DNA from: Glycomyces terrestris
GTDB taxonomy: Bacteria > Actinomycetota > Actinomycetes > Mycobacteriales > Micromonosporaceae
NCBI RefSeq assembly: GCF_003933745.1
Contig: NZ_RSEB01000005.1
Coordinates: 436,475 to 500,474 of the forward strand
Direction: 5' to 3'
DNA: 64,000 nucleotides
Both the position numbers and the translations under genes were made by a program. Shown piece by piece: positions 30,373-47,694 of the stretch; position 1 is the first letter of the stretch, and the number at the start of each line of letters is the position of its first letter. Below the pieces are notes generated by a model that worked only from the letters and a program-made list of their open reading frames with translations, had not been told where the DNA came from and ran no database searches.

Positions 30373-32127
30373 ATGCAAGTACCTCGAAGACGAAGGAGAC
30401 TGGCCATCGCGGGCCTCGCGGTAGCCGCGCTCGCCGCCACCGGGCTGACCTTCGCTTCGGCGAACCAGGCACTCGCCGAAGAAGGCTGCAAGGTCGACTA
30501 CAAGGTCGTCAGCAGCTGGGGCTCAGGCTTCCAGGCCAACGTCACCATCACCGCTCAGGAGCCGATCAACGGCTGGGAGCTCAAGTGGAACTTCCCCACC
30601 GGGACCACCGTCACCAGCGCGTGGAACGTGAGCTACACCCAGAGCGGCACCGCCTTCACCGGCAAGGACGTCGGCTGGAACGCCTCGATCGGCTCCGGTC
30701 AGAGCCGCGAGGTCTTCGGCTTCATCGGCTCCGGCTCCTCGACCGCCCCCGCCCAGTTCACCGTCAACGGCGACGTCTGCAACGGGGTCACCCAGCCGCC
30801 CACCAGCGAGCCTCCGACCAGTGAGGACCCGGGCGGGCCCGGCGACAAGGCCGACAACCCCTACGCCGGCGCGCAGGTCTACGTCAACCCGATCTGGTCC
30901 GCGAACGCCGCGGCCGAGCCGGGCGGCGACGCGATCGCCGACCAGCCCACGGGCGTGTGGCTCGACCGCACCTCGGCGATCTACGGCAACGGCTCCCCGA
31001 CGACCGGCTCCATGGGCCTCGAGGACCACCTCGACGAGGCGCTCGCGCAGGGCGCGGACGTCATCCAGGTCGTCATCTACAACCTGCCCGGCCGCGACTG
31101 CGCCGCGCTGGCGTCGAACGGCGAGCTCGCCGCCGACGAGATCGACGAGTACAAGAACGACTACATCGACCCGATCGTCGACATCATGGGCCAGTCCAAG
31201 TACGCGGACCTCAAGATCGTCAACGTCATCGAGATCGACTCGCTGCCGAACCTGGTCACCAACGTGTCGCCCCGCGCCACCGCGACGGACAACTGCAACA
31301 CGATGAAGGCCAACGGCAACTACATCGACGGCATCTCGTACGCGACGGCCGAGCTCGGCGCCCTGCCGAACACGTACAACTACCTCGACGCCGGCCACCA
31401 CGGCTGGATCGGGTGGACGAACGACGACCCGCAGTACGACAACTTCCACGCTTCGGCGGAGCTGTGGGGCTCGCTCATCGGCGAGAACGGCATGACCGCC
31501 GACGACGTCCACGGCTTCATCACGAACACCGCGAACTACTCGGTGCTCGAGGAGCCCTACTGGGAGGTCGACCAGGTCGTGGGCGGCCGGCCGATCAACC
31601 AGAACGGCGACGTGAAGTGGGTCGACTGGAACTCCTACAACGGTGAGATCGACTTCGCCACGGCGTTGCGCCAGGAGCTGATCGACAACGGGTTCAACAG
31701 CGACATCGGCATGCTGATCGACACCAGCCGCAACGGCTGGGGCGGCGACTACCGCCCGACCGGCCCGTCGACCTCGACGAACCCGATCGAGTTCGTGGAC
31801 GAGTCCAGGCTCGACCAGCGCTACAACAAGGGCAACTGGTGCAACCAGGCCGGCGCGGGCCTCGGCGAGCGGCCGCAGGCCAACCCCGAGCCGGGCATCG
31901 ACGCCTACGTCTGGATCAAGCCCCCGGGCGAGTCCGACGGCGCGTCGGAGGAGATCCCGAACAACGAGGGCAAGGGCTTCGACGAGATGTGCGACCCCGA
32001 CTACCAGGGCAACATCCGCAACGGGAACAACCCCTCCGGGGCCCGCGACGACATGCCCCTGTCGGGCCACTGGTCCTCGGAGCAGTTCGCCGAACTCCTG
32101 GCGAACGCCTACCCGCCGCTGAACTAG
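30373..32127 (+). CDS. CBM2 - GH6 exo-beta-1,4-cellobiohydrolase (584 aa), secreted
   Basis: This enzyme releases cellobiose from the non-reducing ends of cellulose. A signal peptide covers about 1-35 (RRLAIAGLAVAALAATGL). CBM2 (about 38-136) binds crystalline cellulose through its exposed Trp residues (SSWGSGFQ, GWELKWNF). A Pro/Thr/Ser linker (about 137-158) leads to the GH6 catalytic domain (about 160-580), with the substrate-loop motif YNLPGRDCAALASNGEL and the later DTSRNGWGG segment. The long tunnel-forming loops place it with Cel6B-type exo-enzymes rather than endoglucanases. The ATG at 30373 is preceded by AAGGAC. A CebR-like operator controls it, and a terminator follows at 32206. 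Confidence 0.93.
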   Translation: MQVPRRRRRLAIAGLAVAALAATGLTFASANQALAEEGCKVDYKVVSSWGSGFQANVTITAQEPINGWELKWNFPTGTTVTSAWNVSYTQSGTAFTGKDVGWNASIGSGQSREVFGFIGSGSSTAPAQFTVNGDVCNGVTQPPTSEPPTSEDPGGPGDKADNPYAGAQVYVNPIWSANAAAEPGGDAIADQPTGVWLDRTSAIYGNGSPTTGSMGLEDHLDEALAQGADVIQVVIYNLPGRDCAALASNGELAADEIDEYKNDYIDPIVDIMGQSKYADLKIVNVIEIDSLPNLVTNVSPRATATDNCNTMKANGNYIDGISYATAELGALPNTYNYLDAGHHGWIGWTNDDPQYDNFHASAELWGSLIGENGMTADDVHGFITNTANYSVLEEPYWEVDQVVGGRPINQNGDVKWVDWNSYNGEIDFATALRQELIDNGFNSDIGMLIDTSRNGWGGDYRPTGPSTSTNPIEFVDESRLDQRYNKGNWCNQAGAGLGERPQANPEPGIDAYVWIKPPGESDGASEEIPNNEGKGFDEMCDPDYQGNIRNGNNPSGARDDMPLSGHWSSEQFAELLANAYPPLN

Positions 32128-41452: not shown

Positions 41453-43251
41453 CCGCCGCTTGGATCCTCATCGCCGCCCCGGCCGCCGCCGGGCTCGCCG
41501 GGCTCCTGGTGCGCCGCCGCGCGGCCGCCGCCTGGCTCGGGTACGCGGGCCCCGCGGCCGCGCTCGCGTGCGCGGTCGCCGCCGCCACCGCGAACCCGCG
41601 CACCGCGGTCGTGCTCGCCGACTTCGGGACCGTGCGCGTCTGGGCCGCCCTCGACCTCGCCCCCGGCGCGTGCGCCGTCGCGGTCGCCGCCGCGGCCGTG
41701 TCGCTCCTGGTGCAGCTGTACTCGGCCGCGTACCTGCGCGACGACCCGCGCTACGCGCCGTTCGCGGCCCAGGTCAACCTGTTCTGCGCCGCGATGCTCC
41801 TGGTCGTGGCCGCCGACGACCTCGTGCTCCTCCTCATCGGCTGGGAGGTCATGGGCGCCTGCTCGTACCTCCTCATCGCCCACTACGCGACGCTGCCGCA
41901 GGCGCCGGGCGCGGCCGCGAAGGCGTTCCTGGTGACGCGCTTCGGGGACGTGGCGTTCGTCCTCGGCGTCATGGTCCTCGGGACCGCGGCCGGGACGTTC
42001 CGCATCAGCGCCCTGACGGCCGTGCCCGAGGGCGCGGCGGCCGCCGCGATGCTCCTGATCCTGTTCGGCTGCATCGGGAAGTCGGCGCAGTTCCCGCTCC
42101 AGATCTGGCTGCCCCCGGCGATGGCCGGCCCGACCCCGGTGAGCGCGCTCATCCACGCGGCCACCATGGTCGCCGCGGGCGCGTACGTGCTCACCCGGCT
42201 GCTGCCGGTGTGGCCGCCCGGGCTGCTCCTGGTGGTCGCGGTCGTGGCGGCGGTGACGATGGTCGGCGCGGGCCTGTGCGCGCTCGCGGCGCGCGACGTC
42301 AAGGGCGTGCTCGCGTGGTCGACGGTGAGCCAGGTCGGGTTCATGTTCGCGGCCGTCGCGGTCGCGGCCGGGGACTCGGCGCTGTTCCACCTCGTGTCGC
42401 ACGCGGCGTTCAAGGGCCTGCTGTTCCTGACGGCGGGCGTGGTGATCGCGCTGGCGGGCACGGACGGGTCGCTGGCGCGGACGCGGCTGCGGCCGGGCGA
42501 TTCGCGGCTGGTGTTCTGGGCCATGACGATCGGGCTCGCGGCGATGGCGGGCCTGCCGCCGCTGGGCGGGTTCTACTCGAAGGAGGCGGTGCTGGGCGCG
42601 GCCTACGAGGCGGCGACGCCGGCGGGCGTGGTCGTGTTCTGGGCGGGCACCGGGGCGAGCATCCTGACGGCGGCGTACGCGGCGCGGCTGTGGCTGCTGC
42701 TGTTCTGGCGCGGCGGGAGCGGCGAGGCCCGGCCGGCGGTGCCGCGCGCGGAGTCGTTCAGCCTGTGGGCGTTGACGGTCGCGACGGTCGCGGTCGGGGC
42801 GCTGTACTACGCGGGGCCGTTCGAGGTGCCGGTGCTGCACCTGGACTTGATGGCGCTGCTGCTGCTGGCGACGCTCGGCGGGTTCGCGATCACGGGCGAC
42901 TCGTGGTGGCGCGACCGGCCGGGGCGGCGCACGGGCGAGCCGGTCGGGGACCGCGACCCGGCGCGGGTCCTGGGGCGGGCGCGCGAGGCGTTCGCGGAGG
43001 GCCTGTACGCGGAGCGGTTGGCGGCCAAGGCGACCGTGGGGCTCGCCGCGGCGGCGAGCGCGGCGGCGACGGCGCTCGACGTGCGGCTCGTGGACCGGAC
43101 GGCCGTGGAGGGCTCGGCGCGGGCGGCCCTCGCGGCGGCCGACGGCACGGCGGCCGGCCACCGGGGCGGCCTGGTCCGGTACCTGCGCCTGAGCGCGGCC
43201 GGCACGCTCGTGGTGGCGGTGGTCGCGATCGGGGTGGGCCTGTGGACGTGA
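41449..43251 (+). CDS. nuoL: NADH-quinone oxidoreductase subunit L-like (600 aa)
   Basis: NuoL is the distal antiporter-like proton-pumping subunit. The proton-path Glu lies in LLIGWEVMGACSYLLIAHY and the central Lys in GKSAQFPLQIWLPPAMAGP, followed by PVSALIHAATMVAAG. The C-terminal part shows the amphipathic long helix region, then a final membrane helix (GTLVVAVVAIGVGLWT). Its length of 600 aa is a little short. It overlaps nuoK by 4 nt and nuoM by 1 to 4 nt, so the operon is tightly coupled. The soluble NADH-dehydrogenase subunits are absent nearby. Confidence 0.92.
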   Translation: MTAAWILIAAPAAAGLAGLLVRRRAAAAWLGYAGPAAALACAVAAATANPRTAVVLADFGTVRVWAALDLAPGACAVAVAAAAVSLLVQLYSAAYLRDDPRYAPFAAQVNLFCAAMLLVVAADDLVLLLIGWEVMGACSYLLIAHYATLPQAPGAAAKAFLVTRFGDVAFVLGVMVLGTAAGTFRISALTAVPEGAAAAAMLLILFGCIGKSAQFPLQIWLPPAMAGPTPVSALIHAATMVAAGAYVLTRLLPVWPPGLLLVVAVVAAVTMVGAGLCALAARDVKGVLAWSTVSQVGFMFAAVAVAAGDSALFHLVSHAAFKGLLFLTAGVVIALAGTDGSLARTRLRPGDSRLVFWAMTIGLAAMAGLPPLGGFYSKEAVLGAAYEAATPAGVVVFWAGTGASILTAAYAARLWLLLFWRGGSGEARPAVPRAESFSLWALTVATVAVGALYYAGPFEVPVLHLDLMALLLLATLGGFAITGDSWWRDRPGRRTGEPVGDRDPARVLGRAREAFAEGLYAERLAAKATVGLAAAASAAATALDVRLVDRTAVEGSARAALAAADGTAAGHRGGLVRYLRLSAAGTLVVAVVAIGVGLWT

Positions 43252-45062
43252 TGCTGGTGCTCGCGGTGGCGCTGCCGGCGGTCGGGGCGCTCGCCGTGTG
43301 GGGGCTGCGGCGGCGGCCGGAGGCGCACTGGATCGGGGCGGGCGCGGCCGGTTTCGGGTTCGCGGCGGTGGCGCTGCTGCCGGTGGGCCGCGGCAGCGGG
43401 GCGTGGTTCGCCGCGGACGGCGAGCTGACCGGTGGCTGGTGGCACCAGGTCGCGATCGACTGGGCGCCTTCGCTGCACCTCGAGTTCTCGCTCGCGGTCG
43501 ACGGCATCTCCTGGACCCTGGCCCTCCTCACCGCCCTACTCGGGGTCCTGTGCTGCGTGCACAACGCGATCGGCGCGGAGCGCCGCGCGGCCGACCTCCT
43601 CGGCGCCGACCGGTCCGCTTCAGCTCCCCTTCAGGTCCCCGCCGGTACCTTCGAAACTGGGGGCCCACCCCAGGGCCCGGACCGGGTCCTCGGGCTGCGC
43701 ACCGGCGACCGCGCTTCAGCTCCCCTTCAGGAACCCCCGGCTACCGTGGAAACCGAGGGCCCTTCCCCGGCCGCGAGCCGGGCCGGCGGCGTGCCCGCCG
43801 GGCGGGACCCCGCTTCAGGTTCCCTTCAGGAACCCCCGGGTAGCTTCGCAACCGGGGGCCCTTTCCCAGCGGCGGCGCCGGTCCACGGCGTGCCCGCCGG
43901 AGCCGCCGGGGACGGCCCCGAGTCGACCGAGTGGCACTCCCCCGTCCTCACCGCGCTGCTCCTCGCCGTGCAGGCCGCCTCCACGCTCGTGTTCCTCGCC
44001 GACAACCTCGTGCTCTTCTTCATCGCGTTCGAAGCGGTGCTCCTGCCGATGTGGGCGATCATCCACCGCTACGGCGACCCCGCCGCGCGGCGGCGGGCCG
44101 CCGCGAAGTTCGCGCTGTTCACCGTCGCCGGATCGCTCCTCATGGCGACCGGCCTGTTCGCCGCGGTCGCCGACACCGGCACCGCCGACCTCGGCGCGAT
44201 CATCCTCCACGGCGGCGTGAGCGGCGACGCCTCCCTCCTCGTGTTCGCCCTCCTCGCCCTCGGCTTCGCCGTCAAGGCGCCGCTGTGGCCGCTGCACTCG
44301 TGGCTGCCGGACGCGCACACCGCCGCGCCCACCGTCGGCTCGGTCCTCCTCGCGGGCGTGCTCCTCAAACTCGGCACGTACGGCCTCATCCGCGTCGCGG
44401 GCGGCCTCGCGCCCGACGGGGCCGCCGCCGCGGCGCCCGTCCTCGCCGTCCTCGCCGCGCTCGGCATCCTCGTCGCCGGCCTGGTGTGCCTGCGCCTGCC
44501 CGAGATCAAACGGCTCATCGCGTACTCCTCGGTGGGCCACATGGGATTCGTGGTCCTCGCGTTCGCGGCCGGCACCGAGGCCGGCATCCGCGCGGCCCTG
44601 TTCGGGAACCTCGCGCACGGCCTCGTCACGCCCCTCCTGTTCTTCCTCGCCGGCGCCCTCAAGGCCCGCACCCACACCGGCAGCCTCGCCGCCCTCGGCG
44701 GGCTCCGCCTCGCCGCGCCCGCGCTCGCCGGCCTCCTCGGCTTCGCCGCCCTCGCCTCCCTCGGCCTGCCCGGCCTGGCCGGGTTCTGGGGCGAGGCGTT
44801 CACCGTGTACGCGGCGGCCGAACGCGGCGGCGCCTGGCTCGCCCTCGCCGCGGCGGCCGCGTTCGGCGCGTTCCTCGCCGCCGCCTACCTGCTGCGGATG
44901 CTCCGGCACGTCAGCCACGGCCCGGTCGCGCCCGCCGCGCTCGGCATCGGCGACGTCTCAGGCGCCGAAGCCGCCGTCTGGGCCCCGCTCGTGGCCGGGA
45001 CGCTCCTCCTCGGACTCGTCCCCGGCCCGCTCCTCGACCTGTTCTCGGAGGGGCTGCTCTGA
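43251..45062 (+). CDS. nuoM: NADH-quinone oxidoreductase subunit M-like with a ~100-aa repeat insertion (603 aa)
   Basis: NuoM is an antiporter-like subunit. The conserved Glu lies in LFFIAFEAVLLPMW and the Lys in GFAVKAPLWPLHSWLPDAHT, so the pump residues are intact. Between helix 2 (ALLGVLCCVHNAIG) and helix 3 (SPVLTALLLAVQAAS) there is an insertion of about 100 residues (about 120-223) made of three tandem copies of a roughly 33-residue unit rich in Pro, Gly, Ala and Ser. The three DNA copies (43616, 43712, 43811) are close in sequence and use unusual A/T-ending codons. The operon overlap uses TGATG with nuoL, or GTG 43248. Confidence 0.9.
   Translation: MLVLAVALPAVGALAVWGLRRRPEAHWIGAGAAGFGFAAVALLPVGRGSGAWFAADGELTGGWWHQVAIDWAPSLHLEFSLAVDGISWTLALLTALLGVLCCVHNAIGAERRAADLLGADRSASAPLQVPAGTFETGGPPQGPDRVLGLRTGDRASAPLQEPPATVETEGPSPAASRAGGVPAGRDPASGSLQEPPGSFATGGPFPAAAPVHGVPAGAAGDGPESTEWHSPVLTALLLAVQAASTLVFLADNLVLFFIAFEAVLLPMWAIIHRYGDPAARRRAAAKFALFTVAGSLLMATGLFAAVADTGTADLGAIILHGGVSGDASLLVFALLALGFAVKAPLWPLHSWLPDAHTAAPTVGSVLLAGVLLKLGTYGLIRVAGGLAPDGAAAAAPVLAVLAALGILVAGLVCLRLPEIKRLIAYSSVGHMGFVVLAFAAGTEAGIRAALFGNLAHGLVTPLLFFLAGALKARTHTGSLAALGGLRLAAPALAGLLGFAALASLGLPGLAGFWGEAFTVYAAAERGGAWLALAAAAAFGAFLAAAYLLRMLRHVSHGPVAPAALGIGDVSGAEAAVWAPLVAGTLLLGLVPGPLLDLFSEGLL
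43616..43671. repeat. nuoM in-frame repeat, copy 1
   Basis: A 56-nt copy that opens CGCTTCAGCTCCCCTTCAGG, identical over these 20 nt to copy 2. It contains eight A/T-ending codons of eighteen (TCA, GCT, CTT, GGT, GAA, ACT, CCA among them), unlike its GC3-rich surroundings. The core can fold back (CCGGT with ACTGG). Confidence 0.75.
43712..43768. repeat. nuoM in-frame repeat, copy 2
   Basis: A 57-nt copy starting 96 nt (32 codons) after copy 1. The hairpin core is CCCCCGG with CCGAGGG (one mismatch) around CTACCGTGGAAA. Confidence 0.75.
43811..43867. repeat. nuoM in-frame repeat, copy 3
   Basis: A 57-nt copy starting 99 nt (33 codons) after copy 2. Its hairpin core CCCCCGG-N12-CCGGGGG is perfect. 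The segment GCAACCGGGGGCCC (43848-43861) resembles the core of the nuoN repeats. Confidence 0.75.
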
Positions 45063-46759
45063 TGCGCGTCCAGGCGATCGACCACGCGGCCATGCTGCCG
45101 CTCTACCTCGCGGCCGCCGCCGCGGTCACCGCCCTGTTCGCGGGCCGGTTCGCGAAGGGCGCCTGCGCGATCGGCCTCGCCGCGGCCGCGGCCGCCGCCG
45201 TCTGGGTCGGCCTCGGCCCCGACCGGGCCACGTTCGCGGTCGGCGAATGGCACTCCTACGTCGCCGACGACGCCGCCATGGGCGCGGCCGCGCTCTTCGC
45301 CGCCCTCGCCGTCCTCGTCGCGGCCCTGAGCGGGCGGCGCGGCGAGGAGTACTGGTTCCTCCTCGCGGCCTCCGCGGCCGGCGGCGTCGCGCTCGCCGGC
45401 GCCCGCGACCTCATCACGCTCATCGTCGCCCTCGAGACGCTCACGCTGCCGCTGTACGTCCTCGTGACCCGGCCCGGCCGCGACGGCGCCGAAGCCGGCG
45501 CCGTCTTCCTCATCGCGTCCGTGACGTCCTCGGCGACCGCGCTCATGGGCGCGGCGCTCCTGTACGCCGCGAGCGGCACCGTGCACCTCGGGGGCCTCGC
45601 CGCCGGGCTCGGCGGCGCGCACGCCGGCCTGACCGCCGCCGGGGCCGCCCTCCTCCTCGCCGGCCTCGCGTTCAAACTCGCGGCCGCCCCGCTCCACGCC
45701 TGGGCGCCGCTCGTGCTCGAACGCGCCCCGCTCCCGGTCGCAACCTACCTCGCCAGCGCCTCGAAGCTCGGCGGCGCCGTCGCGGTCACCTGGGTCGTCC
45801 ACTTCGGCCTGTCCGGGACGGCGAGCGCGGGGGTCGTCGTCGCGGTGCTCAGCACCGCGTCGATCGCGGTCGGGAACCTCGGGGCGCTCGTGCAGCGCCG
45901 CACCGTGTCCCTGCTCGCCTGGTCGGGCATCGCCCACGCCGGGTACGCCCTCGCCCCGCTCGCGGTCATCGCGACCGCCGCCGGCCGCGACCAGGCCGGC
46001 CCCGCCGCCTCGGCCGCGTTCGCGTACGCGGTGTTCTTCGTGCTCCTCGAAGCGGGCGCCTTCGCGGCCCTCACCGCCGTCCGCCCCGACACCGAGGGCG
46101 GCCTCGCCGCCGCGACCGGTCGCCCGCTCCGCCCCGCGACCGCGAACGGCACCGCCTCCGGCACCGCAGACTTCCCCTCCGACACCGGGCTCCCCTCCGG
46201 CACCGGAGACCTCCTCGCGTCCGGGGAGCGTCGGACCCCCGGGGCAGGATTGCAGCCGGGGGGCCCACCCGAGTCCGGTTTGCAGGCAAGCGCCGGAAAT
46301 GCCGCCCCACTGGACCCGCCGCGTCGGACCCCGCTGGCAGCATTGCAATCGGGGGGTCCCCGGGAGTCCGTTTTGCAGGCTGACGCCGTGAATGTCGGCC
46401 CCGGTGGGCGCATCGCCGAGCTCGCCGGGCTCTGGAAGGCCGCGCCGCTGCCGGCGGCTGTGCTCCTGTTCGCCGTCATCGGCCTGGCCGGGCTGCCGCC
46501 CGCGCTCGCCGGGACGTTCGCCAAGGTCGCGGTCCTCGAGGTGCTCGCGTCCTCCGCGGTGTGGCTGGCCGTCGTCGTCGCGGCCGGGGCCGTCGTCGGG
46601 CTCGCGTACTACCTGCCGCTCGCGCGGGTCCTCCTCGTCGGCCGCGCCGGGCGCGCGCCGCGCCGCTTCGCGGTCGCGGTGGCCCTCGCCGGGCTCGCCC
46701 TCGCCGCGGTGTCGCTCGCGCCGCAGGTCGTGCTGGACTTCACGGCGCTTTCTCGGTAA
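45062..46759 (+). CDS. nuoN: NADH-quinone oxidoreductase subunit N-like with a ~100-aa repeat insertion (565 aa)
   Basis: NuoN is the third antiporter-like subunit. The Glu is in LIVALETLTLPLYVLV and the Lys in GLAFKLAAAPLHAWAPLVLE, both conserved. The start ATG shares one base with the nuoM stop (TGATG). Residues about 350-448, in the loop before the conserved RIAELAGLWKAAPLPA helix, are an insertion not normally present. It holds an 18-nt tandem motif (CCTCCGGCACCG-like) and two 81-82-nt copies of a second repeat, 93 nt apart and in frame. Codons such as GCA, CAA, TTG, GTT and AAT cluster there. Confidence 0.9.
   Translation: MRVQAIDHAAMLPLYLAAAAAVTALFAGRFAKGACAIGLAAAAAAAVWVGLGPDRATFAVGEWHSYVADDAAMGAAALFAALAVLVAALSGRRGEEYWFLLAASAAGGVALAGARDLITLIVALETLTLPLYVLVTRPGRDGAEAGAVFLIASVTSSATALMGAALLYAASGTVHLGGLAAGLGGAHAGLTAAGAALLLAGLAFKLAAAPLHAWAPLVLERAPLPVATYLASASKLGGAVAVTWVVHFGLSGTASAGVVVAVLSTASIAVGNLGALVQRRTVSLLAWSGIAHAGYALAPLAVIATAAGRDQAGPAASAAFAYAVFFVLLEAGAFAALTAVRPDTEGGLAAATGRPLRPATANGTASGTADFPSDTGLPSGTGDLLASGERRTPGAGLQPGGPPESGLQASAGNAAPLDPPRRTPLAALQSGGPRESVLQADAVNVGPGGRIAELAGLWKAAPLPAAVLLFAVIGLAGLPPALAGTFAKVAVLEVLASSAVWLAVVVAAGAVVGLAYYLPLARVLLVGRAGRAPRRFAVAVALAGLALAAVSLAPQVVLDFTALSR
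46228..46308. repeat. nuoN in-frame repeat, copy A
   Basis: An 81-nt unit starting GCGTCGGACCCC and containing GCAGCCGGGGGGCCC (46252-46266), close to a segment of nuoM copy 3. It encodes a Pro/Gly/Gln-rich stretch in the NuoN insertion. Confidence 0.75.
46321..46402. repeat. nuoN in-frame repeat, copy B
   Basis: An 82-nt unit 93 nt (31 codons) after copy A. It shares GCGTCGGACCCC, the TTGCA...GGGGGG core, GAGTCCG and TTTTGCAGGC (copy A: TTTGCAGGC). Many codons end in A or T (CGT, GCA, GCA, CAA, GGT, GTT, GCT, AAT). Confidence 0.75.
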
Positions 46760-46833: not shown

Positions 46834-47694
46834 ATGAAGCACCACAACGGCCTCAAGACGGCGGTGCTGCTCGGCGCGATGTCGGCGATCGTGATCGCCA
46901 TCGGCTACGCCTTCGGCGGCTCCACCGGCGTCGTCATCGCCGCGGTGATCGCCGTCGGCATGAACGCCTACGCCTACTTCAACTCCGACAAGATCGCGCT
47001 GCGCACCATGCGCGCGCGGCCCGTCTCCGAGGCGGAGGCGCCGCAGCTGTACGGCATGGTGCGCGAGCTCGCGCAGCGCGCCGGCCAGCCGATGCCGCGG
47101 CTCTACGTCTCGCCCACCATGCAGCCGAACGCGTTCGCGACCGGCCGCAACCCGCAGAACGCGGCCGTCGCGGTCACCGAGGGCATCCTGCACCTGCTCA
47201 CGCCCGCCGAGCTGCGGGCCGTGATCGGGCACGAGCTGTCGCACGTCTACAACCGCGACATCCTCATCTCCTCGGTCGCCGGCGCGCTCGCCAGCATGAT
47301 CACGATGATCGCGAACCTCGCGATCTTCCTCCCGCTCGGCTCGTCCGACGACGACCGGCCCAACCCGCTGGTGCTGCTGCTGACGATGATCCTCGGCCCC
47401 GTCGCGGCCGGGATGATCCAGATGGCGGTCTCGCGCTCCCGCGAGTACGAGGCCGACGCCGACGGCGCCCGCCTCACCGGCGACCCGCTCGCGCTCGCGA
47501 GCGCCCTGGAGAAGATCGCTGCGGGCGTCGACCGGATGCCGGCCCGCGCCGACAGCCGGGTCGCCGAGCAGTCGCACCTGATGATCGAGTCGCCGCTGCG
47601 CGGCGGGGGCCTGGCGGGCCTGTTCTCGACGCACCCGCCGACCGAGCAGCGCGTCAAGCGGCTCCGCGAGATGGCCCGCGGCGTCGTCCGCTAG
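46834..47694 (+). CDS. htpX: HtpX-type membrane zinc metalloprotease (286 aa)
   Basis: HtpX degrades misfolded membrane proteins. Two N-terminal helices (about 10-55) precede the zinc motif VIGHELSHVYN near residue 133 (HExxH), and the third ligand Glu lies in RSREYEADADGARL near residue 205. Two further helices lie between. Length is standard. It starts 74 nt after nuoN and may share its transcript. An AGGAGG at 46814 lies partly in the loop of a TTTCCC/GGGAAA hairpin. A strong terminator follows. Confidence 0.92.
   Translation: MKHHNGLKTAVLLGAMSAIVIAIGYAFGGSTGVVIAAVIAVGMNAYAYFNSDKIALRTMRARPVSEAEAPQLYGMVRELAQRAGQPMPRLYVSPTMQPNAFATGRNPQNAAVAVTEGILHLLTPAELRAVIGHELSHVYNRDILISSVAGALASMITMIANLAIFLPLGSSDDDRPNPLVLLLTMILGPVAAGMIQMAVSRSREYEADADGARLTGDPLALASALEKIAAGVDRMPARADSRVAEQSHLMIESPLRGGGLAGLFSTHPPTEQRVKRLREMARGVVR

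Follow-up and report, generated by a model that had tools for sequence, protein, structure and literature searches.

Dispersed promoter-like repeats lying in frame within nuoM and nuoN of Glycomyces

In the window, a 64,000-nucleotide stretch of Glycomyces terrestris contig NZ_RSEB01000005.1 (positions 436,475 to 500,474, assembly GCF_003933745.1), the complex I genes nuoM and nuoN carry tandem repeats inside their coding sequences. The repeats belong to two families of short elements, here called A (in nuoM) and B (in nuoN), which are scattered over the genome and have layouts like those of promoters.

Repeats within nuoM and nuoN

The relevant features, based like all genes in this study on calls by a codon-usage script, are as follows.

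43251..45062, + strand: nuoM, host of the family A elements (603 aa, PF00361)
43617..43712, + strand: nuoM element A copy 1; CTTCAG half-sites at 43618 and 43629, -10-like TACCTT at 43646, core to GGGGGCCC
43713..43811, + strand: nuoM element A copy 2; half-sites at 43714 and 43725, -10-like TACCGT at 43742, GTGCCC at 43791
43812..43898, + strand: nuoM element A copy 3; half-sites at 43813 and 43824, -10-like TAGCTT at 43841, GTGCCC at 43890
45062..46759, + strand: nuoN, host of the family B elements (565 aa, PF00361)
46228..46308, + strand: nuoN element B copy 1; box CGTCGGAC at 46229, CAGGAT at 46245, CGGGGG core
46321..46401, + strand: nuoN element B copy 2; box CGTCGGAC at 46322, CAGCAT at 46338, CGGGGG core
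46834..47694, + strand: gene after nuoN, HtpX-like (M48 protease) by its HELSH motif; a possible read-through target

A repeat search finds three copies of 95 nt in nuoM at 43611, 43707 and 43806, spaced by 96 and 99 nt (Tandem Repeats Finder score of the array, 291), and two copies of 81 nt in nuoN at 46228 and 46321, spaced by 93 nt with 78% identity. These are the places given in the original prediction, and every copy is open in the frame of its host gene, as also predicted. The DNA also shows that nuoM copies 1 and 2 begin with 20 identical nt, and it contains the CCCCCGG/CCGGGGG arms as well as the core common to both genes, GCA(A/G)CCGGGGG(G)CCC. The box of the nuoN copies starts with CGTC, and the intergenic copies found by pattern have T as the first base. 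When NuoM and NuoN are compared with solved chains, the best local alignments fall outside the inserted loops. The gene after nuoN, which we take to be htpX, is alike in all 21 nuo loci; HELSH was scored in 20 of these and is also visible in the translation from the window.

Dispersal and layout of two element families

Both units recur in the genome holding the window (G000; 5.24 Mb, 15 contigs). BLAST with the nuoM stretch gave at least 11 non-self matches at E<=1e-5, the best at 1.2e-33 (52 rows when E values up to 10 are allowed), and the nuoN stretch gave at least four, the best at 1.1e-10 (41 rows); the best 40 of 330 candidates for nuoM and the best 40 of 136 for nuoN were scored. Exact patterns were counted against the identical pattern read backwards: the A box is found 32 times versus 1, the B box 33 versus 0, a second B pattern 60 versus 0, and the shared core 37 versus 0, although at least two of the 37 core matches, which fall in genes with neither box, seem to be chance hits. 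Allowing two mismatches in a 400 kb sample, B gave 5 versus 0 and a loose core 5 versus 2; the corresponding A count, 0 matches versus 4 in the reversed control, is uninformative.

The best matches of the window nuoM are three Glycomyces contigs at 83-84%, its own genome being possibly absent from that collection. The genus was compared in 22 genomes, for which pattern counts are complete and listings of individual sites partial; 18 of them contain the core. Outside the genus, 33 of 146 genomes in an order-wide sample of 150 have one to three core matches, which are regarded as background because the reversed control is equally frequent (32 of 146). The same sample has four TANNNTGGAAACCGGGGGC sites in another family of the order, three in G137 and one in G035, which may either have arisen by chance or mark a related start region. 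The units thus belong to element families scattered through G000 and one Glycomyces clade, and the repeats are not a local expansion of a linker, an explanation that is ruled out by the recurrence of both the nuoM and the nuoN units elsewhere in G000.

The context of the elements was read from 110 G000 stretches, a subset of the pattern matches. Full elements occur there at 30 loci, namely nuoM, the sole intragenic one, and 29 intergenic places; nuoN is known separately owing to its CGTC box. By orientation of the neighboring genes, 11 intergenic loci are convergent, four divergent, five tandem-sense and nine tandem-antisense. Convergent gaps are enriched, with p 0.003 against their base-pair share (15% of intergenic bases, 400 kb sample) and 0.02 against gap number. 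One convergent gap (L004, contig C1:922.9-923.5 kb) holds near-identical 112-bp tandem family A units, probably a recent amplification.

Forty element loci of relatives (G001, G005, G007 and G014), picked for having the core, were mapped on G000, and 19 fall on element loci there, at 11 distinct places. The family is readable by pattern at 17 of the 19 and identical at every one of these. The remaining two are L252, whose CGTC box and sequence look B-type by eye, and L271.

Alignment of the copies reveals what is conserved. Family A consists of CTTCAG-N5-CTTCAG, a gap of about 11 nt and TANNNT, and family B of a TGTC box, 8 nt and CANNNT; both run into AACCGGGGG. Among 16 A copies, gathered via the half-site boxes with the -10 box left unused, both CTTCAG, the T-A....T of the -10 box, individual start-region positions and the greater part of the G run are invariant. 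The invariant positions of 14 B copies are GTC..AC, G..A, TTG and GGGGG. Since the two families are alike from the -10 box down and unlike upstream, the proposal of one element family for both genes holds for the downstream core, and the different upstream boxes define two families.

The predicted hairpin fared similarly in part. At least five spacer bases are complementary to the arm in 24 of 56 A elements, where shuffling predicts 7.6, and in 19 of 67 B elements, where it predicts 9.3, so that the complementarity exceeds chance; however, it is confined to fewer than half of the copies and is rejected as a defining feature. Because the invariant columns are of promoter type and the arm is found in a minority of copies, it is the promoter layout, not the hairpin, that is conserved.

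Downstream of the core, a GTGC tail is found within the range searched in 25 of 56 A elements, and six of 31 tail units combine a B box with this A-type tail. The distance from CCGGGG to GTGC is constant in 28 of the 31. GTGC as a start codon at a fixed distance was considered; the intergenic copies show by eye neither a ribosome site nor a following frame. A consensus fold of 28 tails scores z -2.7 versus column shuffles, but near-invariant columns underlie this score. Two B elements, L149 and L150, have a different shared tail (ACCGGTGG..ATCACATGTCACATGGC or close), suggesting that there are more tail types.

DNA-level constraint and a candidate OmpR-type regulator

Genomes outside the clade have short loops. 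Measured from one fixed motif to the next, the nuoM loop spans 15-16 aa in five such genomes, against 49-149 aa in eleven members of the clade and 19 aa in the clade member G015 (G003, G011 and, outside the clade, G020 were not recovered by motif, and the length in G010 was not closed). Together with the copies elsewhere in the genome, this is the opposite of equally long, unrelated loops around a purely local repeat. Exact A boxes are found in nuoM of 12 genomes, always in sense orientation. Fifteen copies from 11 of these genomes share one frame, with TCA and CTT at the box codons in 15 of 15, codons that make up 48 of 1584 serine (3.0%) and 59 of 5096 leucine codons (1.2%) in nuoL, nuoM and nuoN with the elements included. 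The excess of codons ending in A or T, seen earlier in the window copies, is general: third-position GC is 84/195 (0.43) in 17 nuoM elements of 12 genomes, versus 9789/10438 (0.94) outside the elements in 20 called nuoM genes; on stop-to-stop frames the values are 0.43 and 0.86. The nuoM element is under constraint at the level of DNA.

A tree of NuoL, NuoM and NuoN was built from 1527 columns for 21 genomes and one distant outgroup; G018, where nuoM was not recovered, was left out. Support is 86 for the clade, 78 for the G006 node and 50-66 for some inner nodes, and the outgroup is long-branched and failed the composition test. On this tree, the nuoM element is most simply explained by a single ancestral in-frame gain in a 15-genome clade, followed by three losses or decays in G015, G016 and G017. 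For nuoN, B-type cores were chosen by eye from loose DNA matches in G000, G006, G007, G008, G010, G011, G014 and G015, and a peptide match to the B element is found in G002 and G003. Furthermore, nuoK is a third complex I host: an in-frame A element lies at its 3′ end, corresponding to the C-terminus, in G003 (L223:2966) and G012 (L232 near 3409, reverse strand).

A candidate regulator for family A comes from an intergenic region with an A box toward each side, one facing an OmpR-type response regulator gene (PF00072 and PF00486) and the other a divergent PepSY gene (PF03413). Opposed box pairs 107-119 bp apart adjoin the regulator gene in at least seven other genomes, and those in G006 are 31 bp apart. 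Six A-box sites without the GGGGG core were looked at, two further box matches standing outside this count, and five of the six sit upstream of a gene (L110, L111, L119, L124 and L125); the two boxes between the regulator and PepSY genes are among these. Exceptional among the six are L126, in a convergent gap, and L110, which lacks the -10 spacing.

The regulator is full-length with at least 84% identity in 13 of the 22 genomes and has no match at E 1e-60 in eight. In the remaining genome, G016 (L315), the match begins at residue 53, so that aspartate 51, read here as the phosphorylation site, is missing; its own promoter box there is without one half-site. Numbers of CTTCAG-N5-CTTCAG follow this distribution: 12-32 per genome in the 13 with an intact regulator, 0-1 in the eight without it and 9 in G016 (reversed pattern, 0-2). 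The difference between the 13 and the eight genomes gives p 8.5e-5 in a Mann-Whitney test not corrected for phylogeny. Within the clade, the nuoM boxes are intact in all 12 genomes with an intact regulator and in none of the three without (Fisher p 0.002). These three lie on separate branches; the loop is gone in G015, and remnants persist in nuoM of G016 and G017.

CutRS was considered as the regulator and ruled out on its binding motif, a published form of which, for Streptomyces CutR, is TAWATAAA (PMC12802291).

Family B appears to answer to another factor, since G015 retains 53 B sites without the regulator. The consensus given for the RecA-NDp promoter is tTGTCRgtg-8nt-TannnT (PMC5656591); intergenic B copies share with it TGTCR and the 16 nt to the -10 box, and recA of G000 itself, with TTGTCGGGG-N8-TACCGT, fits the published geometry. 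PafBC as the B factor is a guess.

Elsewhere in the window, at 30373-32127, the translation looks by eye like a secreted glycosyl hydrolase whose N-terminus forms a cellulose-binding-like domain.

Proposed promoter cassettes and alternatives

Taken together, the repeats are probably promoter cassettes that depend on regulators, although binding, the transcription start and the effect on nuoN and htpX are deduced from sequence. Family A would be a tandem site with 11-nt spacing for a single OmpR-type response regulator, the one encoded divergently from the PepSY gene, placed about 11 nt before TANNNT, and transcription is predicted to start at AACC just ahead of GGGGGCCC. Family B would be a TGTC-box promoter with RecA-NDp/PafBC-like geometry that feeds the same kind of start region. 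Such cassettes may have multiplied in one Glycomyces clade, chiefly into intergenic DNA, and one A unit would have entered nuoM and one B unit nuoN, both in frame and at loops where additional residues are tolerated, with later tandem duplication of the units in nuo genes in some genomes. If the regulator still binds at the nuoM element, the element would act as a promoter within the gene, reading in sense into the 3′ part of nuoM, nuoN and perhaps htpX, and this binding is most simply why selection keeps its DNA sequence and more than the peptide. That the downstream layout is fixed suggests that the intergenic copies give a short non-coding transcript.

A wider version of this model is more tentative. 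The OmpR-type regulator and a TGTC-box activator might drive interchangeable cassettes as stress-switched non-coding units with a common ACCGGGGG RNA end, and the copies in nuoM, nuoN and, in two genomes, nuoK might supply the distal complex I genes and htpX with additional, internal stress promoters.

Several observations weigh against the promoter cassettes. They seldom face a gene, and because most of the intergenic loci are convergent or antisense, most copies cannot be ordinary gene promoters. G016 keeps its 9 A boxes despite a truncated regulator, and G006 has the regulator and 17 boxes, yet no A element in nuoM. Copies turn over, as 21 of the 40 relatives' loci map to no known G000 element. 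Concerning family B, the nuoN copies in G000 have CGTC instead of TGTC and hence an imperfect box; after TGTCR the family departs from the RecA-NDp consensus, with NAC, not gtg, and CANNNT, not TannnT; and six other Glycomyces genomes have only 0-5 B sites, where a universal PafBC would predict otherwise. Predicted transcripts of 31 units are at shuffle level for structure (mean z 0.01), and a search of eight loci against Rfam gave two sub-threshold matches with no family reached; a structured small RNA was rejected on these single-sequence energies and the Rfam result.

Repeats that spread selfishly or passively, of the RPE (Rickettsia palindromic element), REP (repetitive extragenic palindrome) or MITE (miniature inverted-repeat transposable element) type, could also sit in tolerant loops and resemble promoters as a by-product. 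Dispersal, tandem arrangement, enrichment in convergent gaps (11/29), hairpin potential above shuffles, RPE-like in-frame insertion and turnover at 21/40 relatives' loci would all be expected of them. This origin is nevertheless judged unlikely: the family is unchanged at 17/17 readable orthologous sites, boxes are invariant while spacers drift, loss follows the regulator on three branches, and the 25 A units examined are without terminal inverted repeats.

Correia elements have terminal inverted repeats; the longest end-to-end match in the 25 A units is 2.6 versus 3.0 after shuffling. The sequences bordering the nuo loops have diverged too far for the ends of an element to be located. Correia elements and other MITEs are described as small dispersed repeats carrying promoters, the former mainly upstream of genes (PMC10969869). 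The Glycomyces cassettes share promoter sequences with them, but their loci are mostly convergent or antisense, and their boxes are specific to a regulator. The same source describes RPEs as short repeats that have entered metabolic proteins in frame. The likeness to RPEs put forward in the original prediction stands for this in-frame insertion into protein-coding genes and fails for the palindrome: RPEs are palindromes found in many unrelated genes, whereas intragenic Glycomyces elements were seen in nuoM and nuoN here plus nuoK in G003/G012, their hairpin is not conserved, with the arm in less than half of the copies, their conserved columns form two promoter-type layouts, and conservation follows a regulator. 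The defining features of RPEs or of Correia-type MITEs are therefore not fully present. Family B has the TGTCR and the distance to the -10 box of actinobacterial RecA-NDp/PafBC promoters and differs in TGTC(A/G)NAC, CANNNT and its 60 pattern sites in G000, with few in the other Glycomyces clade. In the PhoB box, a pair of direct half-sites with 11-nt spacing lies roughly 10-11 nt before the -10 box. Family A has this tandem geometry of OmpR/PhoB-type promoters and differs in its CTTCAG half-sites, its multiplication as a cassette and its embedding in coding sequence. Among the matches listed in a search of open-licence papers there was no earlier description of such repeats in Glycomyces or NDH-1, which is weak as evidence of absence.

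The main alternative for the intergenic copies is a sponge, in which arrays of sites titrate the response regulator and transcription is not required. Binding alone needs neither the -10 box with its spacing nor the GGGGGCCC core, which are also kept, nor GTGC at a fixed distance in 28/31 units having one, and a sponge seems rather improbable even with tandem box arrays at places where promoters would serve no gene and with numerous sites per genome. Selection on a peptide linker (SAPLQVP..ETGGP), from which the likeness in DNA would follow, is very improbable: the peptide is similar across the 15 nuoM copies, but the same DNA lies in intergenic regions, synonymous positions are fixed to rare codons, and the clade member G015 manages without the loop.

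If the promoter-cassette interpretation is correct, repeats carrying promoters have been domesticated within the coding sequence for core membrane proteins, where selection on regulatory DNA keeps them. The three losses or truncations of the regulator would serve as natural gene-loss experiments for testing it. The system may also allow asking how the sites of a regulator spread through a genome and what role transcription units play in convergent gaps, and it would bear on whether the end of the nuo operon is controlled separately from its start.

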